Shown one piece after another: positions 4,843-19,608 of a stretch of 20,083 nucleotides of DNA. How positions within the stretch are numbered: position 1 is the first letter of the stretch; every line of letters starts with the position of its first letter. A program made the translations under genes and the position numbers. A model generated the notes under the pieces. The model was not told where the DNA came from. It was given only the letters and a program-made list of their open reading frames with translations, and ran no database searches. The DNA comes from a virus. The stretch is taken from the IMG/VR virus record IMGVR_UViG_3300003322_000165, positions 1 to 20,083 of that record, one strand, 5' to 3'.

Positions 4843-5364
4843 TCAATACTCCTCAACGAAGATGGTGCCAGGAGATCCGTTGCCACCAGTGGCACCACCG
4901 CCACCAGTTCCTCCACCACCAGCACCAAAACCAGAAGCAGATACGCTAGGATATGCGCCGCCTTTTCCATATGGACTGCTCATTCCGTGAGTCTCTCCAT
5001 AACTGTACGGATTAGCGTTTGGACTAAGTGCTCCATAACCGGTCAGCGTATCGAACGTAGTGTCGCTTCCTGCACCGCCAGGACCGCCAGCCGCGCCATT
5101 TCCAGCAGCGCCGACTGCGTATGCGTAGCTGCTCTTTGTGTTCTGGATCCAGTATGTAACTGGAATTGCAGCGTTGCCACCAGAACAAGAAGTAGCACCT
5201 GACGTGCTATTACCTCCAGCTCCGCCACCCAGCAGCGTGACTTTCAGCCACGTTGTACCAGCTTGCGGAATGAAGTTGCCAGTTCCAGCAAGCTGCCAAG
5301 TGTATCGTGGCGCGCCTACGATCGGAGTGTCCCGATTCGGCAAGCCAGCATCAAATTCGCTCAT
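4843..5364 (-). CDS. Glycine-rich tail-fibre tip / adhesin-like protein
   Basis: A 173-residue protein starting at ATG 5364, with GAGGT about 8 bases upstream. After a short N-terminal part (PRYTWQLAGTGNFIPQAGTT) the sequence becomes strongly Gly-rich: LLGGGAGG at about 45-52, GAAGNGAAGGPGGAGS near 91-106, and GFGAGGGGTGGGGATGGNG near the C-terminus. It ends in GSPGTIFVEEY. Gly-rich fibre tips ending in a hydrophobic-EEY tail occur in many phage receptor-binding proteins, where polyglycine helices pack into a compact tip. The neighbours on both sides are fibre-type genes, so it is probably the distal receptor-contact part of the fibre. Which receptor it binds cannot be told. Confidence 0.82.
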   Translation of the reverse strand: MSEFDAGLPNRDTPIVGAPRYTWQLAGTGNFIPQAGTTWLKVTLLGGGAGGNSTSGATSCSGGNAAIPVTYWIQNTKSSYAYAVGAAGNGAAGGPGGAGSDTTFDTLTGYGALSPNANPYSYGETHGMSSPYGKGGAYPSVSASGFGAGGGGTGGGGATGGNGSPGTIFVEEY

Positions 5365-5366
5365 GA

Positions 5367-6080
5367 TTAGTACCTCGCGATAGCTGCGTCGAAGCTAATC
5401 ACTGCCGGCAGCGCAGAAACTGCAGCTAGCGGCTGAGCAATCAGCAAAGAATCCGCGCCGAGATACCACTGCTTTGTGAGCACGCTCTTGTCGTTCGCGT
5501 TCGCGATCAGTCCGACGTTCGGAATCGCGTTCGTATTGCCAGCATTCACAGGAACCTGCACAACGAAGCGAGGAGTCACAGCGCAGATCAGGGAGCCACT
5601 AGCGAGAGCAGCAAGCACTGCGAAAGGAGCGCCATCCACCGTGAGCGTGCTAGCAGTGACGGCGGTAACAGTAGCAGGAATGCCATCGACTGCTGCATTC
5701 TCTGCAGATCCTTGCGGTGCGAACACCATCAGGCGCATGCCAGGACGCCAGCCTTCGCGAATCCAATCGCTACTAGCAGTGTTCGCACGCACAAGCGTGC
5801 TCGCAGTCGTGTTGATCGTGCCAGTCAGCAGAGCATCTTGGTACGAAATCTTATTTCCGAACCAGATCCTAAAGTCCCTGGCAGTGCCGTCGCTGCTACT
5901 GGCAGTAAATCCGATCAGGGCAGCGCCTCCGTAACGCAACGGAGAGGGGTCAGCAGCTGCTGCGGAGGATTGCGGAAACACCACCACTTTGGCTTTCGTG
6001 CCATCCGCAGCAATGAAGCTAGCATTGCAGTACGGACGGGTGAAATCCGCAGGAGTGTTTGCATAAATGGGAGCAGTCAT
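5367..6080 (-). CDS. Putative tail/fibre structural protein
   Basis: A 237-residue protein starting at ATG 6080 in an ATGA overlap with the upstream fibre gene. It is Ala/Thr/Val-rich with many short predicted strands. It opens with MTAPIYANTPADFTRPY, carries a possible carbohydrate- or trimer-type beta region around residues 70-160 (FRIWFGNKISYQDALLTG, TVTAVTASTLTVDGAPF), and closes with VISFDAAIARY. No enzyme motif was seen. The start overlaps the fibre gene upstream and the stop is 2 bases before the Gly-rich adhesin, so the three are likely made together as parts of one fibre or base structure. The family is not recognised. Confidence 0.8.
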   Translation of the reverse strand: MTAPIYANTPADFTRPYCNASFIAADGTKAKVVVFPQSSAAAADPSPLRYGGAALIGFTASSSDGTARDFRIWFGNKISYQDALLTGTINTTASTLVRANTASSDWIREGWRPGMRLMVFAPQGSAENAAVDGIPATVTAVTASTLTVDGAPFAVLAALASGSLICAVTPRFVVQVPVNAGNTNAIPNVGLIANANDKSVLTKQWYLGADSLLIAQPLAAVSALPAVISFDAAIARY

Positions 6081-7774: not shown

Positions 7775-7790
7775 AGCAACTTTCGTTGCT
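7775..7790 (-). other. GAAA-tetraloop hairpin at the capsid stop codon
   Basis: On the minus strand AGCAAC-GAAA-GTTGCT is a perfect 6-bp stem closed by a GNRA tetraloop, starting on the last stages of the capsid stop codon. A compact hairpin here could stabilise the capsid message 3' end together with the terminator 12 bases further on. The structure is seen; the role is inferred. Confidence 0.55.
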
Positions 7791-9001
7791 TAGCCCACCG
7801 CACCCGCGGTAAAGTTCAGCAGCTGAACATTCGCTGCCGGATTCTTCACGAGGCAGGTCAGTTCCGTAGTGAGCGTGCCACCGACAGCGTCGATGCCATT
7901 GTCCACTGCAGGAGCACCCTGGCCATTGAACTCCGCGTTGCGAGTCTTGCGACCTTGCATGTACGCCAGACCGAAGGTAGACAGATCGATACCGATCGCC
8001 ATCTTAGCCCAGGTAGTGGCAGCGCCATAAGCATTCAGCAGCGGATGCTCGATCAGATTGAACGTGCCACGCGGAGTCTTGATCGTATCGAACTGCAGAC
8101 CCCATTCCGTGGTTTGACCCTGGATGTAGTACGTGCTGTTCAGACGGCAGATCGCATGAATCACACGACGTGCGATGCCACCCACGAAGAGCGCACGCAT
8201 GTTCGGATTCTTCGGATCCGTCACCTGATTGAACGCAGGATCCAGAGCTGCTTCCAGCTGCGTCCACGTGGTGGTAGCACCGAGCGTGGTGATGTTGCCA
8301 GCAGCAGAAGTTGCCAGGATGTTCAGCAGGCCATCCATGGTATGGATCGGCTGGCTGTTCAGCGTGTTCTGGTACTTCTGTGCGTACAGCAGACCCTTCT
8401 CGATGTCCGTCGCATGGAACACAGCGCAATCCTGGCGGGATTCAGCATCTGCGGAGCCGCCAGCGATGGTAGCAGTAGCAGCTGCAGTGCCGCTCACCAT
8501 CCACGTGTTGCGGAAGATTTGCGTGTAGTTCGTGACACGAACCGGCAGAATCAGCAGCGAAGTCGGACGCACGGATGCTTCTTCGTACGCATTGCCGATC
8601 ATCCACAAGTTCACGGAGTTGCCGATTGCAGCACCAGCGACGGTACCGAAGCTGCGACGGACGGTGATCTGCGTCGAGTTCGGAACGGTCAGCACCAGAA
8701 CGTTCTCGCCAGTAGTGTCTGCACGCAGAACCATACCAGGAAGAATATTCGTGGTAGAAACCACCGTGAACGTCGTCGTGACGCCGTCAGCAATGGCACC
8801 GTTCAGAACCACGGACGGGAAGATCATCGTCTTCGCGAAGTAGCCGTGTTCATACTGGTACGCAGTTTCCTCCTTCAGCATCGAAGTGATGCCGTACAGA
8901 GGAGCCGTACCGTTCGGCATCAGCCGAGTAATTGCAGAAGAAAAGCTCTTCTTCGCCCAGTCGGTGGTGAAAGAAGAGGTGGAAAAAGCGCCAGTAGGCA
9001 T
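7790..9001 (-). CDS. Major capsid protein (SU10-type, DUF5309)
   Basis: A 403-residue protein starting at ATG 9001, with TGGAG 6 bases upstream. The sequence has features of the DUF5309 / SU10 major head protein family: an early LMPNGTAPLYGITSMLKEE region, a beta insert (VVLNGAIADGVTTTFTVVST, TQITVRRSFGTVAG), the motif VRVTNYTQIFRNTWMVSGTA, a long central helix (IEKGLLYAQKYQNTLN), and late strands with FNLIEHPLLNA. These proteins have the HK97 fold and build the icosahedral shell. It lies directly after the scaffold gene and before the terminator, the usual place. Length fits the family. There is no N-terminal protease or delta-domain fusion, consistent with a separate scaffold. Confidence 0.92.
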   Translation of the reverse strand: MPTGAFSTSSFTTDWAKKSFSSAITRLMPNGTAPLYGITSMLKEETAYQYEHGYFAKTMIFPSVVLNGAIADGVTTTFTVVSTTNILPGMVLRADTTGENVLVLTVPNSTQITVRRSFGTVAGAAIGNSVNLWMIGNAYEEASVRPTSLLILPVRVTNYTQIFRNTWMVSGTAAATATIAGGSADAESRQDCAVFHATDIEKGLLYAQKYQNTLNSQPIHTMDGLLNILATSAAGNITTLGATTTWTQLEAALDPAFNQVTDPKNPNMRALFVGGIARRVIHAICRLNSTYYIQGQTTEWGLQFDTIKTPRGTFNLIEHPLLNAYGAATTWAKMAIGIDLSTFGLAYMQGRKTRNAEFNGQGAPAVDNGIDAVGGTLTTELTCLVKNPAANVQLLNFTAGAVG

Positions 9002-9830: not shown

Positions 9831-10070
9831 TTAAATGAAAGCAGGAGGGTTGGGATTTGCAGGTTGATCCTGCGGTGCTTGCTCGGGAAATTCATCCGCG
9901 AGAAGTTCGTTCAGCAATTCCCACTTGCCGCTAAGATAAGCATGGCGACGAATGGATTGCTGGTCCTGTGCAGGATCTTGAAAGTTAAAGGAGAGAAGCT
10001 CCTCTCCGACTTTCTTTGCTGCCTGCGACAGAAGATGCTCTTGCATCGGTGTGAAGTTCAGAAGTTTCAT
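9831..10070 (-). CDS. Small head-region protein of unknown function
   Basis: A 79-residue protein starting at ATG 10070 in an ATGA overlap with the portal stop. The N-terminal two thirds look helical (MQEHLLSQAAKKVGEELLSF, RRHAYLSGKWELLNELL), and the C-terminus is Pro/Asn-rich (EQAPQDQPANPNPPAFI). The family is not recognised. Being between portal and scaffold suggests a head-assembly role, possibly a portal or scaffold partner; this is inference. Confidence 0.82.
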   Translation of the reverse strand: MKLLNFTPMQEHLLSQAAKKVGEELLSFNFQDPAQDQQSIRRHAYLSGKWELLNELLADEFPEQAPQDQPANPNPPAFI

Positions 10071-11995
10071 TGTAGGGGTGGCGTAGCGCCAGGTTGGCCA
10101 GGAATCTGTGCAGCTCCGGGAACTCCCATCGGAGCGGCTGGCTGTTGCTGAATCTTGAAGTCGTCAATCCAGTTGGCACCTTTCAGCTTCATCCAGTAAG
10201 CAAAAATACCCATGATGTCATACGACTGCATGACCATAGGATTCTGCCCTGCCATGTTGAAGAGCGCTTGGAAAGTTTCTTCGTTGATGTATTCGCTGCT
10301 CGGGATCAGGCCGTCTGCGATCTTGAATTCCAGAGACTGGTTTCGCAACGCAACCGGATCGATCTTCACCGCCTGTGCAGTCTTGCGGCTAGTGTACGTA
10401 TCCGCTTGCTGGTACTGCAATACATTCATCTTGATGATCGTCTTCACAGCATTGAAGAAGCGATACTCCAGCACCAGCGCAGTCATGCGAGGACGGCTGT
10501 CACTATTAGCCATCGTTTCTTGGAATTCCGTCCGAGTCTTGTTCCCTTTCTGAAACTGACCTTGCTGCACTCGATTCTGGCCATTCGCAATGTTCGCCAT
10601 CTCGACAACGCGATCGCTAGCAGCAAAAATTGCAGCCACTTGATCGTCTCGATATGGGACAGCTGCGAACGCTTCGGCAATCGGTTTTCCGTACCCTTCC
10701 GTCTTGATAGGAATGCGGGCGATTGCGCTTGTGTTGTCAATATCCGCTTTGTTGATTCGACTCGGATCGTAGAAAATGCGATCGTAAACTTTACGCCGCT
10801 GACTTTCCATGCCGCTGTTGAACAGTGCAGTCGCAGCGTTCTGGTACGGTTCCGCGTTGTTCACCAGCGACTTCGCTTGCCAGCCGGTACCATCTTCCAG
10901 AGGCTGGCAGCAGACGATCGGCAGCAGATTGTGAGCGTTGCTTTGACGCTGGAAATACACCAGGATCGAATCATTCACAACGATCAGCTTGAAGATCTGC
11001 GGCGTGTTCCTGTTTGCACCACTCAGACCCAGTTGGCTGGGAATGATGCGCATGTACAGCGTTGTGACTTTGTAGCTGTTATGATACTTGATTTTGCTGT
11101 CTGCGGCGGTGGAGATACCCATGTAGGTATCCCAGTTAGTTTCTCCATTCGTCTGCAACGTGCTAATATCCATCAGCGCAAACGAGTTAATTTGAGGAAT
11201 GAAATAACCCCCGGCACTAGCTTGGCCAGAGTACATACTCATACCGCCAGGACTGTTGAAAGCCTCTGCAGCGTTCATGGTAACTGTAGGATCCCACTCG
11301 GAGAATCGCTTCTTCAGTTCCACCCCTGAGATCATTTCGTGATAGCCAACGAATTCTCCCTTCGTATGCTGTTCATACGGGAGAACACGTTCGTCTACAA
11401 TCAGGTTATACGGATCGATCCTGCGAACCGCGTTCCCTGAGAATGTCGTCTCGGTAGCAGCGCCTTGTTTCATGCTGCGAGTCGCATCGTTCTCGACAGC
11501 AAAGACTTTCTTCGTTTCCCAGACGACTTCACACGCCATGAGATTGTGCTTGAGGCCATCTCGCATACTGCCTAGGAACTCCGCAGGCCAGCCAAATTGC
11601 GAGCACTGCTCGTCAATTACAGCTTCCATCATCTGCGCTGCATCGATCGCATCCGGCTTGCTCACCACTGGGAACATCGGAGTGGAGCTGAGAAAGATAT
11701 CTCGCAGTGTGTCCAGCATCGTCTCTACTTGCGGCATCACAACGGGAATCGTGATGTTCTGCAACTTGCTAGCGTCTCCGCTCTGAAGCGCGGCTCGATA
11801 ATATCGTTGCTTCGTCGTGAAATCAGTCTCACGCTGATAGACTCGATCGTTCCATTCCATGCGAGAACGCATGTTGAAGATTCCAGTGTTCCGCTGCTGA
11901 ACATTCCGAGCCAGCTGAATCACAGCTTCTTGCTGCTTCGGATTCAGAGGAACACCAACAGCAGCATTGCTTTGAAGAGCAGAAGTTTTTGCCAT
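10067..11995 (-). CDS. Portal protein
   Basis: I choose ATG 11995 (MAKTSALQ), giving 642 residues. A GTG four codons upstream at 12007 is in frame but lacks a ribosome site and lies just past the terminase stop. The N-terminus (NPKQQEAVIQLARNVQQRN) is helical. The core has portal-type phrases (ITIPVVMPQVETMLDTLRDI, GWPAEFLGSMRDGLKHNLMA, FNSGMESQRRKVYDRIFYD). The C-terminus is Pro/Gly/Ala-rich (APMGVPGAAQIPGQPG). Portals form the dodecameric ring at one vertex through which DNA is pumped; this one resembles the podovirus P22/SU10 class in length and helix content. It is directly after the large terminase and overlaps the next gene by 4 bases, as expected. Confidence 0.88.
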   Translation of the reverse strand: MAKTSALQSNAAVGVPLNPKQQEAVIQLARNVQQRNTGIFNMRSRMEWNDRVYQRETDFTTKQRYYRAALQSGDASKLQNITIPVVMPQVETMLDTLRDIFLSSTPMFPVVSKPDAIDAAQMMEAVIDEQCSQFGWPAEFLGSMRDGLKHNLMACEVVWETKKVFAVENDATRSMKQGAATETTFSGNAVRRIDPYNLIVDERVLPYEQHTKGEFVGYHEMISGVELKKRFSEWDPTVTMNAAEAFNSPGGMSMYSGQASAGGYFIPQINSFALMDISTLQTNGETNWDTYMGISTAADSKIKYHNSYKVTTLYMRIIPSQLGLSGANRNTPQIFKLIVVNDSILVYFQRQSNAHNLLPIVCCQPLEDGTGWQAKSLVNNAEPYQNAATALFNSGMESQRRKVYDRIFYDPSRINKADIDNTSAIARIPIKTEGYGKPIAEAFAAVPYRDDQVAAIFAASDRVVEMANIANGQNRVQQGQFQKGNKTRTEFQETMANSDSRPRMTALVLEYRFFNAVKTIIKMNVLQYQQADTYTSRKTAQAVKIDPVALRNQSLEFKIADGLIPSSEYINEETFQALFNMAGQNPMVMQSYDIMGIFAYWMKLKGANWIDDFKIQQQPAAPMGVPGAAQIPGQPGATPPLQ

Positions 11996-12009
11996 GATTG
12001 ATTTCACTT

Positions 12010-13494
12010 TTAAAATGCTGGTTGAAGATCTTCCGCGAATGCTGCAGTTGCAGACGACTCCGGAATTTCGTAGACGCGCATGAGCTGATATTTGTACTTC
12101 TCGATCACTTGGAACGCATACGTCGGTAGATCAAGAATGTCGTCTTTGTTATCATTCCGCATCGCATCGAAGTGCATCGCCTGATGCAACAGACGAGACT
12201 TCACACGCGGATGCACTAGAATCTTCTTATCCGGCGCTGTGATCTGCTTGAGCATCGCGTTGATGCGAGCATTCTTTGTGCCGCCAACTGGGTAGATCTC
12301 AAGCGGGATGAAACCTTTGATTCCTCGCTGCATCGCAATGTAATTGAACCAGAAGGCCAGAGTCGCTTGATACGCCACGCTCTCGATGACGATAGCACGA
12401 AGACCGAGCCGCATCCCCATTTCCATCGCAGTTGTAATGCATTGGAGCGGATTGAATTTCCCAACTTCGAGATCCCAAAAAATCGGGACAGCGTCGTAGA
12501 GGAGGAACGCTCCGATTGCGACATCGTCTGATTTTTTCTTGCCCACGCTAGGATCGATGATGATCCAGCCAGCCTCAGATTCAATTGCGTCGTGTCGGTG
12601 ATCGGAGTAATTGATCGCCGAAAGATCGACGCCCACACGGGCTCCAGCTTCCTCGTCATTCATCACCTCGCTGTAGAAGATTTCCGGATGCCCCATGCTC
12701 ATGTCATCTTGCAGCTCATCTAGGATGCTATCGACACTCCGCAGCTCCGGCCAGATGGATTCGCCGTCAGCAAGGATCGCACCGGTGATGAAAGAGAACC
12801 AAGCTGGATTGTGCTTCAGCTTCTTAAGAATGCTGCCTTCAAACGGGTACATGTTCCCGATGAACGCGTAAAGGCAACGCTTCTTATTGTTCGCTTTCAT
12901 CAACGTAGCGAGCATCCACACGAGACCTTTCGTGCTTTCTGTCGTGCTCTGAGCTTCCTCTCGACTTTGCATGTCATCCATCAGCATCACATCCGGACGA
13001 ACGTATTTAATATTCAGGCCGCGCAAGCTACCGAGATTTCCGAGTCCTGCTAGCGTGACTGGCCTGCCAGCAAAGAAGAACTTCTGCAGATCTTGACGTT
13101 CCGTTTCAGCGCGGCTTTGATAATTCCCATACAGACGGATGAAGTTCTCGCTCCGAAGAATATCCATCACGTCGGTAACGAAGTTCACGGCAAGCGGGAA
13201 CGTGTTGCAGATGATGAGAATGAATCGACGGTTGCTATAGACAATCAACCAGGCTACTAGCAGCTTCAGAACGATTGTCTTCCCGAATCCGCGCGGCAGA
13301 CCGAGAGCGATCTTGTCCAATCCTTCTCCTTTAAGCGCGGCTTCACAGAGAATCTGCCAGTACGCTTTGAAGATCGGAGGAAACGGAAACTCATAAACAT
13401 CCGGCAAGCAGATCATTGCGAAAGTGTCTAGGTCCCATTTCGCGGCATCAATGATCTCCTGCCGATTCGTCTTTGCGACAAAGATTTCGTTCAT
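12010..13494 (-). CDS. terL: Terminase large subunit (packaging ATPase-nuclease)
   Basis: A 494-residue protein starting at ATG 13494, in an ATGA overlap with the hydrolase gene. The ATPase half has a Walker A at 65-73 (GLPRGFGKT) and a Walker B at about 169-174 (VMLMDD). The nuclease half has the acidic set expected for the RNase-H fold: D314 in IIIDPSVGKK, D323-D324, E371 in VIESVAYQ, and D451-D452/D455 in NKDDILDLP. It powers DNA entry through the portal and cuts the concatemer. The ribosome site is weak, so its translation is probably coupled to the upstream gene. All key residues appear present. Confidence 0.95.
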   Translation of the reverse strand: MNEIFVAKTNRQEIIDAAKWDLDTFAMICLPDVYEFPFPPIFKAYWQILCEAALKGEGLDKIALGLPRGFGKTIVLKLLVAWLIVYSNRRFILIICNTFPLAVNFVTDVMDILRSENFIRLYGNYQSRAETERQDLQKFFFAGRPVTLAGLGNLGSLRGLNIKYVRPDVMLMDDMQSREEAQSTTESTKGLVWMLATLMKANNKKRCLYAFIGNMYPFEGSILKKLKHNPAWFSFITGAILADGESIWPELRSVDSILDELQDDMSMGHPEIFYSEVMNDEEAGARVGVDLSAINYSDHRHDAIESEAGWIIIDPSVGKKKSDDVAIGAFLLYDAVPIFWDLEVGKFNPLQCITTAMEMGMRLGLRAIVIESVAYQATLAFWFNYIAMQRGIKGFIPLEIYPVGGTKNARINAMLKQITAPDKKILVHPRVKSRLLHQAMHFDAMRNDNKDDILDLPTYAFQVIEKYKYQLMRVYEIPESSATAAFAEDLQPAF

Positions 13495-14651
13495 ACCAGG
13501 TACTGTGTACCGTTAATGATGCAAGCCAGCCCGTCACTCGTACCGACTTGATTGATTCGAGTGACAGTTGCACCGTTCAGCATTGCTGCGATGCTTCTAA
13601 TATACGCAGCTCGTTCATCTGTAGAACTCCATCCCAGCGGATACAGAGTTGCACGCTGCATGCCGATAGCAACATTCCAAAGGAAGAATCGCAACAGCGC
13701 TTTTGCACGATTAGCTTCTGTGCCTGTATATAGGCTGAAATCCGGATTGATGTATCCGAACTCAGTAGACCAGACAGGCATTGCTGCGATGCCGTTGTTT
13801 GCTTTCAGCGTCGTCACGTAGCCTTTGGTGACGTACATATTCGACAGCTTGTTCAAGCCGCTGTGTTCGTACGTGTGCAAGCTGATAGCATCAATCCACA
13901 GCTTTCCTGTCCCTGCTGCGCCATCGCTAGCTTTTAGGAATTGATCCGTGTAATCGATACCGAAACCAGCGGTGTTGTTATTCACGCCAGTGCATGCGAC
14001 ACCGAGAATCTTCACGCTTGGCTTGATTGCTTTCGCAGCCAGATTGATTGTACGCGCCATCTCCGCCAGCTTCGCAGGAGTGCCAGTGTAATATGTATTA
14101 CCGGCTGTCTGGGGCTCGTTCCAAACTTCGATATAATCGATATAGTCTCCACAAGTCAACATCAGCTGAGTAACGAATGTGCTGAGATACGCCATGTTTG
14201 CAGGCTCAGCCATACCACCTACGTCTGATGGGTAGACAGTATTTACTTCAGCTGGTCTAGCAGATGCCCAGGTTGGCGTGCTAAAAAGCGTCACTACCGT
14301 TTGAGAACCTACTGATTTGCAAGTGCGCAGCCAGTTTAGTATGCCGTCGAATCGGTACACGCCGTTTGCAGGATTCATCTGCGACCAGCGAGGTGCCATG
14401 TCATGGCTTCGATTCCAGCAACCTGCATAGCTAGCAGCAGATGCTTGAGGCACGTGCATGCCTACGAAATTCGAATCCAGAACTACGGGACCTTCCAGCA
14501 GATTCGTTCCCAGCGCAGCAGGAATTGCATTGATAAAAAGATCGCTCTGCTCGTAGCAGTCGAAGTTCGTACCATTCTGCTGAGCTAGAATGAACGGAGG
14601 ATAGTCGCTGCTGCGAGCATTCGCCGGAGTTGTCATCGGACGAGAGTACAT
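13491..14651 (-). CDS. Clan-A glycoside hydrolase (GH39/GH5-like), putative virion depolymerase
   Basis: A 386-residue protein starting at ATG 14651, with AAGGAG 8 bases upstream. The body is a TIM-barrel hydrolase: a substrate-loop region (PRWSQMNPANGVYRFDGILN), the strand TVVTLFSTPTWAS, the acid/base motif YIEVWNEPQ with E179, SLHTY with H259, and the nucleophile motif VWSTEFGY with E297. The 118-residue gap between the two glutamates and the WNEP motif fit retaining clan-A enzymes. There is no signal peptide, so it would leave the cell in the virion or by lysis. It probably cleaves a host surface polysaccharide; the substrate cannot be told. Its place between the two terminase genes is unusual. 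No separate fibre-attachment domain was recognised. Confidence 0.85.
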   Translation of the reverse strand: MYSRPMTTPANARSSDYPPFILAQQNGTNFDCYEQSDLFINAIPAALGTNLLEGPVVLDSNFVGMHVPQASAASYAGCWNRSHDMAPRWSQMNPANGVYRFDGILNWLRTCKSVGSQTVVTLFSTPTWASARPAEVNTVYPSDVGGMAEPANMAYLSTFVTQLMLTCGDYIDYIEVWNEPQTAGNTYYTGTPAKLAEMARTINLAAKAIKPSVKILGVACTGVNNNTAGFGIDYTDQFLKASDGAAGTGKLWIDAISLHTYEHSGLNKLSNMYVTKGYVTTLKANNGIAAMPVWSTEFGYINPDFSLYTGTEANRAKALLRFFLWNVAIGMQRATLYPLGWSSTDERAAYIRSIAAMLNGATVTRINQVGTSDGLACIINGTQYLV

Positions 14652-15319: not shown

Positions 15320-15859
15320 TCACAGATTATTCGCTAGTGTCAGTTTCATTGGTGCAGCCACATCCAGGATCTGCTCTGTTTTCCGCGCTTCCAAGCGCTG
15401 AGCTAGCGTCTTCGCTGGCATCGTAACCATGCTGCGGCCTTCCACATCGATAACTTGCTTGTCGCTACTGAGCTCGATTGCGACGTGCAATTTTGTTGCT
15501 GCCTTCGGAAGCACGAGAGTGACAACATCTCCGGATTCCTGATTCTGACTGGCAGCGCCTTCGCTAGCGCGGCGATGAGCTGCGTTCAGAACACTGAACA
15601 CTCTGGCTGCTTCCACGGGTTTCGTAATCATTGGAATCAGAGCCTTCACACGCTTTAGAGCTGCACTCTCTGCATCTTCCAGAGTTTCATCTGCTTCAAT
15701 GAATTTAGCTGTCTTCGCAGCTCGCCCTGCTGCCACTGCAGAAGCAAACTCTTCCTCTGCCATCAGCTGGCTGACGTAACTGTCATCGCAGCCAACTGCT
15801 GCGGCTGCTTGCGTCTGAGAGAGTCCGTTGCTGAGAAGCTTTTGAATCTGTTCTTTCAC
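15320..15859 (-). CDS. Terminase small subunit candidate (HTH protein)
   Basis: A 179-residue protein starting at GTG 15859, with a very strong AAGGAGG 5 bases upstream. Residues 12-34 (GLSQTQAAAAVGCDDSYVSQ) form a helix-turn-helix. A long helical region follows (AESAALKRVKALIPMITKP, EAARVFSVLNAAHRRASEG), and the C-terminal part is beta/polar. DNA-binding HTH plus a central oligomerising helix and a C-terminal tail is the layout of small terminases, which recognise the packaging site and pass the DNA to the large subunit. It is the first gene of the late block. A transcription regulator is an alternative, but the length and position fit terminase better. Confidence 0.7.
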   Translation of the reverse strand: MKEQIQKLLSNGLSQTQAAAAVGCDDSYVSQLMAEEEFASAVAAGRAAKTAKFIEADETLEDAESAALKRVKALIPMITKPVEAARVFSVLNAAHRRASEGAASQNQESGDVVTLVLPKAATKLHVAIELSSDKQVIDVEGRSMVTMPAKTLAQRLEARKTEQILDVAAPMKLTLANNL

Positions 15860-16266: not shown

Positions 16267-16908
16267 TCAGAACTCCGCTTCGATGCCGCTGCCAGCGATG
16301 ATGATTTGCAGCCGGTTTGCCAGCATCACAGCGTGCGGATCGCTCATGTCAGCATCTGCGAGCTTGGCAACGATCTGCGTTGCTTCGTTCACGGTGAATG
16401 CGTTGCGATAGAGCGGTGCCAGGATGCCAGGGAGGCGAGCTTGCCAGAGCTGGCGAGACTTCTCGGAGAGAGTGCTAGCAGTAGCAGAGCCAGCGAACCA
16501 GGACAGGAGCGATTCCTTGGTGATGCGGCTGCGTTCACGCTCTTCAGCCCAGTAGCCGAGCAGAGCATCCACGGTGAACATGCGCGGCTCGATCGCTTGC
16601 AGGCTCATGCCTTCCTCTGCCAGCAGGGCAGCAAAGCGTTCCTGTGCGATCTCGTGGATGCGTGCTTGCACCAGGGATGCAAACTTGCTGCTGATGCCAC
16701 CAGCATCGATCAGAAGCGGCTGCTCGGGAACGAATGCGACACGATAGCGATTGCTGGCTTCGACAGGGTTCTTTTCCGTGCTGCGTGCACGCTTCTCCAG
16801 AGCGTAGAAGCCAGCAGGCGTAGGAGTGGGAACGGTGTAGATGGGCACGAGTGCGCTGGCGCTGGTTTCGTTGGTGGACAGTGCAGCGATGGAAACAGTT
16901 GCGTTCAT
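16267..16908 (-). CDS. Isolated phage protein of unknown function
   Basis: A 213-residue protein starting at ATG 16908 with GGAG about 8 bases upstream. It has a Thr/Ser/Pro-rich N-terminus (IYTVPTPTPAGFYALEKRAR), a middle with AFVPEQPLLIDAGGISSKFA, and a long helical C-terminal two thirds (LVQARIHEIAQERFAALLAE, SRQLWQARLPGILAPLYRN). No enzyme motif or membrane segment was seen. It stands apart from the late block, with a hairpin in its leader and its own terminator, so it probably forms its own transcript, possibly expressed at a different time. Its nearness to the candidate origin could mean a replication or early role, but nothing in the sequence shows that. Confidence 0.82.
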   Translation of the reverse strand: MNATVSIAALSTNETSASALVPIYTVPTPTPAGFYALEKRARSTEKNPVEASNRYRVAFVPEQPLLIDAGGISSKFASLVQARIHEIAQERFAALLAEEGMSLQAIEPRMFTVDALLGYWAEERERSRITKESLLSWFAGSATASTLSEKSRQLWQARLPGILAPLYRNAFTVNEATQIVAKLADADMSDPHAVMLANRLQIIIAGSGIEAEF

Positions 16909-16927
16909 TTCGAACTCCGTAGGAAGA

Positions 16928-16945
16928 CACTGCGAAATTGCAGTG
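16928..16945. promoter_or_regulatory. Inverted repeat in the leader of the isolated gene
   Basis: CACTGC-GAAATT-GCAGTG is a perfect 6-bp inverted repeat 20 bases upstream of the start at 16908. An overlapping second one, ATTGC-AGTGAT-GCAAT, covers 16937-16952. The pair could be an operator or two alternative leader hairpins. The role is not shown. Confidence 0.45.
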
Positions 16946-17070
16946 ATGCAATCCTAGCTGGTTGCTTGCTTGCTTTGTAGCCTGTTATTAGTCAAGTCTC
17001 GCTTCGTGAGTTGCGAATGCTTTCTGGCACAGGATTTGCTTTCTGCTGCAGCGCATCAATTGAACACGAA

Positions 17071-17085
17071 TGCGAATCATTCTCA
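17071..17085. promoter_or_regulatory. Fur-box-like palindrome
   Basis: TGCGAATCATTCTCA is a 7-1-7 palindrome with 6 of 7 arm positions matching, and it agrees at 12 of 15 positions with the Fur consensus TGATAATCATTATCA. It is 163 bases upstream of the isolated gene. One site of this size can arise by chance, so this is only a candidate. Confidence 0.25.
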
Positions 17086-17228
17086 TTTACATCTGCATTC
17101 AGAGTGAGCACTAACTTCTTGTGCGATGCAAACGCTATTAAGATCCTTTCTAAAAAGCTTTTGCAGAGTAAAGATGCTTCTGAAAAGCTTCAGTTCTCGC
17201 TGGAATCAGCAAATCGCCTTCTAATGCC

Positions 17229-17531
17229 GTAACAGCTGTAACTCTTGTAACTCTGTAACGCCGTAACAGGGCACCCCTTTTCGCCCTCCTCTTCTGGCTT
17301 CTCTCGATCCTATCTTTCTGCACACTCTTCCTAGCTTCTCCACTGTCTTTATCTCTCCTGCTATCTCTTTTGTTTTTATTTTTAATAATTTTAAAGACCC
17401 CTGAAAAAAGACAGGAACCAGAAGAGATAGCAGAGAAGATAGAATCGCAAGGAGCCCCTGCGCGACGGCCTGGAAGGGGGTAGGAGTTACAGGATTACGG
17501 GGTTACAGCAGTTACGGCGTTACGGGGTTAG
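17229..17531. repeat. Inverted iteron arrays around an A/T core, candidate replication origin
   Basis: The left arm has GTAAC at 17229, 17238, 17247, 17255 and 17263. The right arm has GTTAC at 17486, 17502, 17511 and 17519, with ATTAC at 17494 and GTTAG at 17527. Spacing is 8 or 9 bases in both arms, and the arms are mirror images. Between them the left side is pyrimidine-rich and the right purine-rich. CTGCTATCTCTTTTG (17358-17372) pairs with 17419-17433 at 14 of 15 positions. The centre (17368-17396) is almost all A/T. Phased iterons beside an A/T-rich melting region are typical of protein-dependent origins. A partition site or packaging site is the alternative. Confidence 0.75.
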
Positions 17532-17920
17532 ATGGCCTAGCTGAGATGCTAACTCGAGCCTTCAGCCGTCGTGCTGCACGTTCTCAACGCAGCTAAGATA
17601 GCAGCACAAGCTCACGCTAGCAGGGTTCATCACCCTGCACCCCATTGTGATTCTGCGATTCTCGCTAGTAAATGGCAATGTAATTTCCTGACGGAAATTC
17701 CAACTCGCTACGCTCGGCCATTGACAAGCTGCGATTCTCAATCCCTGCGGGGCGCGGTGACACCCTTACGCGTGATCTCGTGCCTACAGCCGTCGTTAGC
17801 ATCCTCCTCAATTCTATATCCTAACTAATGCAGCACACACCAGCAGATGCTAACTCAAAGAGAAGCACGGCGTCCCAGAAAGAACGCAGGCCGCGTTAAA
17901 CAGACTAGGTAGAAACCCTA
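17532..17920. other. Gene-free region with hairpins and short repeats
   Basis: No convincing gene. A rightward open frame at 17571-17828 lacks a ribosome site and is not called. Visible elements are hairpins GCAGGG-TTCATCA-CCCTGC (17620-17638) and AATTTCC-TGAC-GGAAATT (17682-17699), the latter inside an outer AATGGC/GCCATT pair (17671-17676 and 17718-17723). There are also repeats of CTGCGATTCTC (17653 and 17729), CAGCCGTCGT (two copies) and GATGCTAAC (three copies). It probably has a replication or regulatory role next to the iteron arrays, or could encode a small RNA. Confidence 0.5.
17544..17856. repeat. GATGCTAAC motif, two direct copies and one inverted
   Basis: AGATGCTAACTC occurs at 17544-17555 and 17845-17856, and GTTAGCATC, the inverted 9-base core, at 17795-17803. 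Three copies in about 300 bases between the iteron arrays and the rightward promoter suggest a binding site for a phage regulator or replication protein. The copies are seen; the binding is inferred. Confidence 0.5.
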
Positions 17921-17958
17921 TAGACACAGCTCTCGCATTCATGGTATAAAGCGAGAGC
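17921..17958 (+). promoter_or_regulatory. Rightward early promoter with an operator over the -10
   Basis: TAGACA (17921-17926) and TATAAA (17945-17950), 18 bases apart, match sigma70 -35 and -10 boxes at 5 of 6 each. GCTCTCGC (17929-17936) and GCGAGAGC (17951-17958) form a perfect 8-bp inverted repeat that brackets the -10. Transcription would start near 17957, about 84 bases before the first rightward gene. The repeat could be an operator, or a hairpin at the very start of the message. Confidence 0.65.
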
Positions 17959-18040
17959 CTGGAGCGCTGCTGCGCGTGTGGCGCGGAAACAACACTTCCT
18001 GGCATCTCTGATTAGATAGTAACTTAACTAGGAGTTCGTA

Positions 18041-18313
18041 ATGAACAGATTCACTGAACAGCTTCTCTCTGACGAGTTCTTTTATAACGAAAGTTTTCAC
18101 ATCGTGAATGCTCTCGGTCATGTATTTCAAATGGGAAGTCGTGGAAGCAATCCTTATAGCTCTGCGCCATTTGAGGCTATGCAGAATGCTAGTCTCACAG
18201 TTAATTGGATTGAGTACAAACTCACATTCGTTTGCCTGCTCGCAGCAATGTCCGATGAAGACATCGATGCATTCGTTGCTAGCTTCGCAGAACAGCAAGG
18301 AGAACAAGCATGA
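18041..18313 (+). CDS. Small early protein of unknown function
   Basis: A 90-residue protein starting at ATG 18041 with AGGAG 6 bases upstream. It is the first gene after the rightward promoter. The N-terminal part (MNRFTEQLLSDEFFYNESFH) is acidic and aromatic. The middle, VNWIEYKLTFVCLLAAM, has a mildly hydrophobic helix, and the C-terminus is acidic helix (SDEDIDAFVASFAEQQGEQ). There is no recognised motif. Small acidic first-in-operon early proteins of phages often bind host enzymes, but nothing here shows a target. It overlaps the next gene by 4 bases. Confidence 0.82.
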   Translation: MNRFTEQLLSDEFFYNESFHIVNALGHVFQMGSRGSNPYSSAPFEAMQNASLTVNWIEYKLTFVCLLAAMSDEDIDAFVASFAEQQGEQA

Positions 18314-19194: not shown

Positions 19195-19608
19195 ATGAAT
19201 CCTATCAAAACCATCACCACAGCAGCAGATGTTCAAGATGATCCTGCGCTGCGCATTCTCAAACGTGCAGCTCGGATTCTCAGCAAGCCTGAAGCGTGGA
19301 CAAAAAAGGCAGAAGCGCGCACAGAAACTGGCAAGGAAATTTTTTACGATAGCAACAGAGCTGTATGCTTCTGCAGCATGGGAGCAATCTGGCGCGCTCG
19401 AAAAGACATTCTCGGTACACAAGATTGCGACGATGATTACAGCGTGCTCCGTAAAGTAGTAAAGGGAGCGCACACTGGAATTGGTATCGTTGATTGGAAC
19501 GACGCTCCAGAGCGCACGCATGCAGAAGTGCTCGCAGCATTTCAAGAAGCGATCGCACAGCGAGAGCAAGATCTGATTGACTATGCGAACGGAAAGGAAT
19601 CGCAATGA
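19195..19608 (+). CDS. DUF6197-like early protein
   Basis: A 137-residue protein starting at ATG 19195, with AAGGAG 7 bases upstream and 1 base after the previous stop. It has the marks I associate with DUF6197: an early helix (LRILKRAARILSKPEAWTKK) with W35, AVCFCSMGAIWRA at 56-68, and WNDAPERTHAEVLAAFQEAI at 101-120. The family is widespread in phages and actinobacteria, and its role is not known. The Cys pair at 58 and 60 is part of the family's usual CxC pattern. The C-terminus is acidic helix. Its last 4 bases overlap the next gene. Confidence 0.82.
   Translation: MNPIKTITTAADVQDDPALRILKRAARILSKPEAWTKKAEARTETGKEIFYDSNRAVCFCSMGAIWRARKDILGTQDCDDDYSVLRKVVKGAHTGIGIVDWNDAPERTHAEVLAAFQEAIAQREQDLIDYANGKESQ

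Follow-up and report, generated by a model that had tools for sequence, protein, structure and literature searches.

A conserved mirror-image iteron element with a changing word, a candidate replication origin in an uncultured phage group

The window analysed here, the entire 20,083-b IMG/VR record of an uncultured bacterial virus (a linear fragment), contains a mirror-image repeat of about 300 bases that has a conserved architecture and an evolving word. We propose, with a rough probability of 55%, that this element is the phage's replication origin, in which two head-to-head iteron arrays would surround an A/T melting core. An origin is the best explanation for the combination of the melting core, the conservation of the element, the DnaA-box clusters found in some relatives and the covariation of the word with a phage protein family, p340. 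The first-pass annotation had already named the region a candidate origin, and these four observations lend it indirect support, whereas GC skew proved inconsistent.

Anatomy of the element

The element occupies positions 17221-17531 at the point where the early and late genes diverge, a location that the first-pass annotation had noted and that the gene map bears out. The leftward late genes include those for the major head protein (7790-9001), the portal (10067-12007) and the large terminase subunit (12010-13494), the rightward early genes begin at 18041, and 1.1 kb without a convincing gene separates 16908 from 18041. The features of the region are as follows.

15320-15859, minus strand: late gene for the terminase small subunit (TerS), with an N-terminal helix-turn-helix
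16267-16908, minus strand: p213 (213 aa), one of a family whose gene neighbours the element, in either orientation, in most relatives
17221-17225, plus strand: CTAAT, degenerate outer sixth unit of the left array, read from the sequence
17229-17267, plus strand: left iteron array, five GTAAC units starting at 17229, 17238, 17247, 17255 and 17263 (periods 9, 9, 8, 8)
17268-17364, plus strand: pyrimidine-rich tract, ACCCC beside the array and then C/T-rich (80% pyrimidine over 17268-17370)
17358-17372, plus strand: inner inverted repeat, left arm (14 of 15 against 17419-17433)
17365-17394, no strand: A/T core, the probable melting region and least stable 30 b of the window
17395-17485, plus strand: purine-rich tract mirroring the pyrimidine tract (71% purine over 17395-17484)
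17419-17433, plus strand: inner inverted repeat, right arm (14 of 15 against 17358-17372)
17476-17480, plus strand: G-block immediately inside the right array, seen in the sequence and of presumed role
17486-17531, minus strand: right iteron array, six GTTAC-type units (periods 8, 8, 9, 8, 8)
18041-18313, plus strand: first early gene past the element, an ORF with a ribosome-binding site and a product without assigned function

The units of the right array start at 17486, 17494 (ATTAC), 17502, 17511, 17519 and 17527 (GTTAG), four of them exact and two with one change, and 218 b separate the two arrays. The left arm likewise has six units if one counts the degenerate CTAAT at 17221, which mirrors the degenerate outer CTAAC of the right arm (the reverse complement of GTTAG at 17527). 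The first-pass description of five units facing six at these periods, about 220 b apart, is confirmed. Neither GTAAC nor GTTAC exceeded 2 copies per 45 b in any of 200 dinucleotide-shuffled versions of the window, compared with the 5 and 4 observed. The inner inverted repeat, CTGCTATCTCTTTTG, and the almost pure A/T centre (90% A/T) were likewise found as described, as was the layering of the whole into one imperfect palindrome with pyrimidine-rich and purine-rich flanks. Melting, which had been suggested as a check, was computed as duplex stability over the window and reached its 30-b minimum in the core and its 100-b minimum at 17346-17445. As single-stranded DNA, the whole element is predicted to fold far better than its shuffles (z = -5.2). 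A similar G-block occurs in five relatives (L002, L083, L057, L012 and L164).

Three further observations concern the genes of the window. The start contexts of the two genes that flank the element, GGAGTTCGNAATGAAC, are nearly identical in opposite orientations (15 of 16 bases between 16903-16918 and 18031-18046). A 386-aa ORF between the two terminase genes (13491-14651, minus strand) recalls glycoside hydrolases by eye and had no match in Pfam; at its position, the relative L002 carries a different, shorter ORF. The early gene at 19195-19608 (plus strand) belongs to the DUF6197 family (Pfam PF19698, E 1e-19).

Conservation of the architecture and turnover of the word

An alignment of TerL (A1) retrieved 80 viral contigs, and a detector for mirrored arrays was then run on their loci. 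In L002, whose TerL is 59% identical, five TGTACC units at 487-527 (periods 9, 9, 9, 8) face five GGTACA units at 794-834 (periods 8, 9, 9, 9) at the place equivalent to the window's element, such that the architecture is shared while one base of the word is altered in every unit. Mirrored arrays with an 8-9-base period scored at least 9, and above all 40 dinucleotide shuffles of the same site, at 32 of 46 homologous sites beside packaging genes; the 32 include the window and the near-identical pairs L016/L017, L023/L024 and L034/L036, which somewhat lowers the count of independent phages. When whole loci were scanned, all hits scoring at least 12 fell at the element's site. A second fetch of contigs, by TerS, added about a dozen elements, with the words CATAAC, TGTGTA, AACTTC, ATGCCA, TGTATC, AGACTG, GTGCTA and TATTAC and with TGTAAC arrays of six plus seven units, a count that leaves out low-complexity detector hits in L133, L159, L189 and probably L172.

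Across the family we counted at least 20 different words (for example TGTAAC, TGTACC, GTAGCA, TTGTGC and TATCCT), and both arms of an element always share the word. Comparison of these sequences indicates that the architecture is kept while the word turns over, both arms changing together. The idea that the arrays are kept in relatives thus stands for their architecture, but the GTAAC word itself is not kept. Elements in relatives mostly span 240-430 b, and the asymmetry between a pyrimidine-rich left and a purine-rich right side is common (mean 62% vs 33% pyrimidine), with 22 of the 32 elements exceeding the 99th percentile found for random stretches.

Close relatives sit on contigs of about 42-44 kb or on fragments binned into metagenome assemblies, and since the contigs come as such bins and fragments, the host has no reliable assignment. 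Used directly as a nucleotide query against phage records, the element gave no match, and portal and p213 searches of viral contigs returned nothing or L002 only. Mirrored arrays of this kind were not found described for this phage group in the open-access papers covered. Among more distant phages, the counterpart intergenic region of Fredfastierviridae (PaP2, PaMx41, Neko) and of Caulobacter phage Kuura holds mirrored arrays of short words (CAAGGT; GGGCAGT). This region shares with the element its genome position, the mirrored short-word arrays and an A/T-rich interior, but its arrays are weaker, a p213 homologue is not detectable, and a p340-like protein was found only in Aeromonas phage P5, as a weak homologue (E 7e-5) next to the helicase. 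Neither p213 nor p340 was detectable in Kuura, a profile comparison of both with the neighbouring proteins of PaP2 and Tiera did not show homology, and tblastn of isolates with one member each of p213 and p340 found none; the broad alignment of p213 proved too diverse for use as a query.

A candidate initiator and a model for replication

The p213 family was single copy in 19 of the 20 records searched. Its AlphaFold2 model is good (pLDDT 90), yet no family, sequence or fold match was found. On the early side, families of p340 (300-450 aa) and of a Dda-like helicase recur in 20-21 of 25 loci. In relatives p340 is encoded 1-6 kb from the element, adjoining the helicase, and each of the 17 near-complete relatives (17 of 17) has one copy; the window's fragment stops short of its own p340. 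The p340 model is moderate (pLDDT 80) and gave no clear structural match, nor was a family match found. No recognisable DNA-binding or initiator fold, including the Rep winged helix, was found in either protein, and the fold searches gave only low-Z helical matches, which are not informative on fold novelty.

We correlated word distances, with words taken from detector output and by eye, with protein distances in Mantel tests. All proteins tested correlate with the word, because all follow phylogeny. p340 alone keeps its correlation under control for each other protein, with r = 0.256 controlling for TerL (p = 0.0013), 0.32 for p213 and 0.31 for TerS in 22 loci, and 0.37 for the helicase (p = 0.0007) and 0.33 for the portal in smaller sets, values to be read in light of the fact that Mantel tests are prone to false positives and can be anticonservative, and that p340 may simply follow phylogeny better. 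The helicase control matters because the helicase lies on p340's side of the genome. The five other phage proteins tested fall to about zero correlation once p340 is controlled. On this statistical association, p340 appears to be the best candidate for a word-specific initiator; sliding windows along it did not single out a specificity region. With TerL controlled, p213 retains a near-zero correlation with the word and was therefore rejected as its reader; we do not rely on segment 25-70 of p213 (p = 0.017, uncorrected).

L023/L024 and L028 carry clusters of DnaA boxes (at least 3 per 250 b) next to the element; in L063 and L155 the cluster lies beyond p213, as seen from the element. Within the 1.53 Mb scanned (duplicate copies included; L155 was found later), such clusters are confined to the territory of the element, p213 and TerS. 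In the first set of loci, 7 exact boxes (TTATCCACA) occur near the element vs 5 in 512 kb elsewhere (7 of 12 in 9% of the sequence), and the associated p = 3e-5 treats boxes as independent, an assumption that clustered boxes and related phages violate. In the second set exact boxes are not enriched (1 near vs 6 elsewhere), and the window's own element has no DnaA box nearby within one mismatch. Given clusters in several loci and no enrichment in the second set, DnaA may take part in only some of these phages. As an observation of its own, the boxes of L063 (five DnaA-type boxes at 1941-1990) and L155 (six at 5321-5564) lie between the p213 and TerS genes.

Cumulative GC skew reaches its extreme near the element in P5, in contig G013 and roughly in Neko, and 8-13 kb off the element in contigs G002, G008 and G010. 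We discarded skew as an origin marker, as it is inconsistent among relatives and confounded by gene direction, and a skew extreme at the junction, proposed at first pass, fails as general support.

As a working model of the origin, a phage-encoded, word-specific initiator, for which p340 is the best candidate, would fill both arrays cooperatively at their 8-9-base spacing. The mirrored arrangement would place two oppositely oriented complexes, one on each side of the core, which would then open and allow helicase to be loaded outward on either side, leading to bidirectional replication. In some relatives, host DnaA may be recruited through the boxes beside the right array.

Plasmid iterons are about 17-22 b long, and DnaA boxes are common, not universal, in iteron-type origins. 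Like the iteron-type plasmid origins of RK2 (oriV), P1 and pSC101 (PMC4980987), the element would combine tandem direct-repeat initiator sites with an adjoining A/T unwinding region, but it differs in its pentamer-hexamer words at 8-9 b, in having two mirrored arrays that flank the core, in candidate initiators that show no known Rep fold, and in that nearby DnaA boxes are found only in some relatives and not at the window. The tandem direct-repeat array is present in the window's element, and the A/T-rich unwinding region beside the repeats is predicted from the 30-b and 100-b stability minima. The core origin of the SV40 type has T-antigen pentamers around an A/T element and resembles the present element in that oppositely oriented pentamer sites adjoin a melting core. 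Here, by contrast, arrays of 5-6 units stand about 220 b apart rather than forming a compact core, and no T-antigen homologue was found.

We tentatively suggest, at clearly less than even odds, that these elements constitute an undescribed class of phage origin, with twin head-to-head arrays and a melting core, a new initiator family (p340) accompanied by a Dda-like helicase, a word that has changed at least 20 times inside a single phage group with the arrays in step, and some members that also hold the packaging terminus. If the origin reading is true, the family would supply naturally varied pairs of DNA word and initiator sequence, making the specificity code of a new origin-binding protein directly testable. 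A large uncultured group of podovirus-like phages, relatives of Fredfastierviridae, would gain an origin and perhaps also a packaging site, and mirrored arrays at the early/late junction would become a marker for such origins in metagenomes. One may also ask why both arms turn over together; avoidance of cross-replication between co-infecting phages might be one cause.

Packaging and other readings of the element

The element might instead serve packaging or concatemer processing, with TerS or a helper such as p213 binding the arrays and the end being cut between them near the G-block to yield direct terminal repeats. We consider this somewhat unlikely, and it could coexist with an origin in one intergenic region. 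The first-pass annotation had set a purely packaging role against an origin, and it is Kuura that keeps this rival in play: its 606-b direct terminal repeat, mapped by PhageTerm (PMC9959647) and confirmed in its record, has its left boundary at 43208, between a left array at 43037-43073 (GGGCAGT x4) and mirrored right units at about 43220-43247, and the mapped genome end falls in a G-block. However, Kuura is a distant relative without detectable p213 or p340, its right array is weak, and no array was noted at its second cut (606). The records of PaP2, 119X and several PaMx phages begin between their CAAGGT arrays, although such starts may be conventional, and the non-circular contig G002 (42,952 b) has its break within the element, at the G-block. 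Contigs G008, G013 and G004 self-close with 123-127-b overlaps, which fit terminal redundancy or circular forms and do not place the ends. The element lies close to the gene for TerS, with its N-terminal helix-turn-helix, yet the TerS-word correlation vanishes, and TerS divergence adds nothing to prediction of the word, once TerL or p340 is controlled. In T7 and T3, arrays of short repeats flank the terminal repeat; the likeness is that short tandem arrays lie near an end of the genome, whereas here the arrays are mirrored and variable in word, and only the distant relative Kuura has a mapped terminus inside them.

The position at the early/late divergence, in a 1.1-kb intergenic region with an equivalent in relatives, would also suit a divergent control region in which the arrays are operator or activator sites of a phage regulator for the leftward late and rightward early transcripts. 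A scan of 16900-18100 for promoters and terminators, limited to the sigma-70 type, gave none above chance, and a regulator by itself would not need mirrored arrays round the weakest duplex of the window, leaving this reading improbable. Plasmid centromeres can be iteron arrays, and a small protein bound to the arrays might make the element a centromere-like partition site for an episomal carrier state. Episomal persistence has been reported for Shea, a PaP2-like phage (PMC13348215), but no ParA/ParM-like partner was identified among the proteins scanned and the related contigs look like free phage genomes, so that we give this reading very little weight. Slippage does make short words recur in some loci, yet chance or neutral repeat expansion without function is contradicted by matched mirrored arms at one place, with at least 20 words and above all shuffles, and its probability is close to negligible.

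Two minor observations concern the distant phages. Tandem duplications of about 70 b lie in or near the element-equivalent region of Kuura (L007, 43244-43379) and Tiera (L005, 43930-44075), possibly an assembly artefact, both genomes coming from one laboratory. The right terminal-repeat boundary of Kuura (600-612) and the start of the PaP2-like records (PaP2, L088, 1-15) lie at or next to TATAATGG-like sequence.
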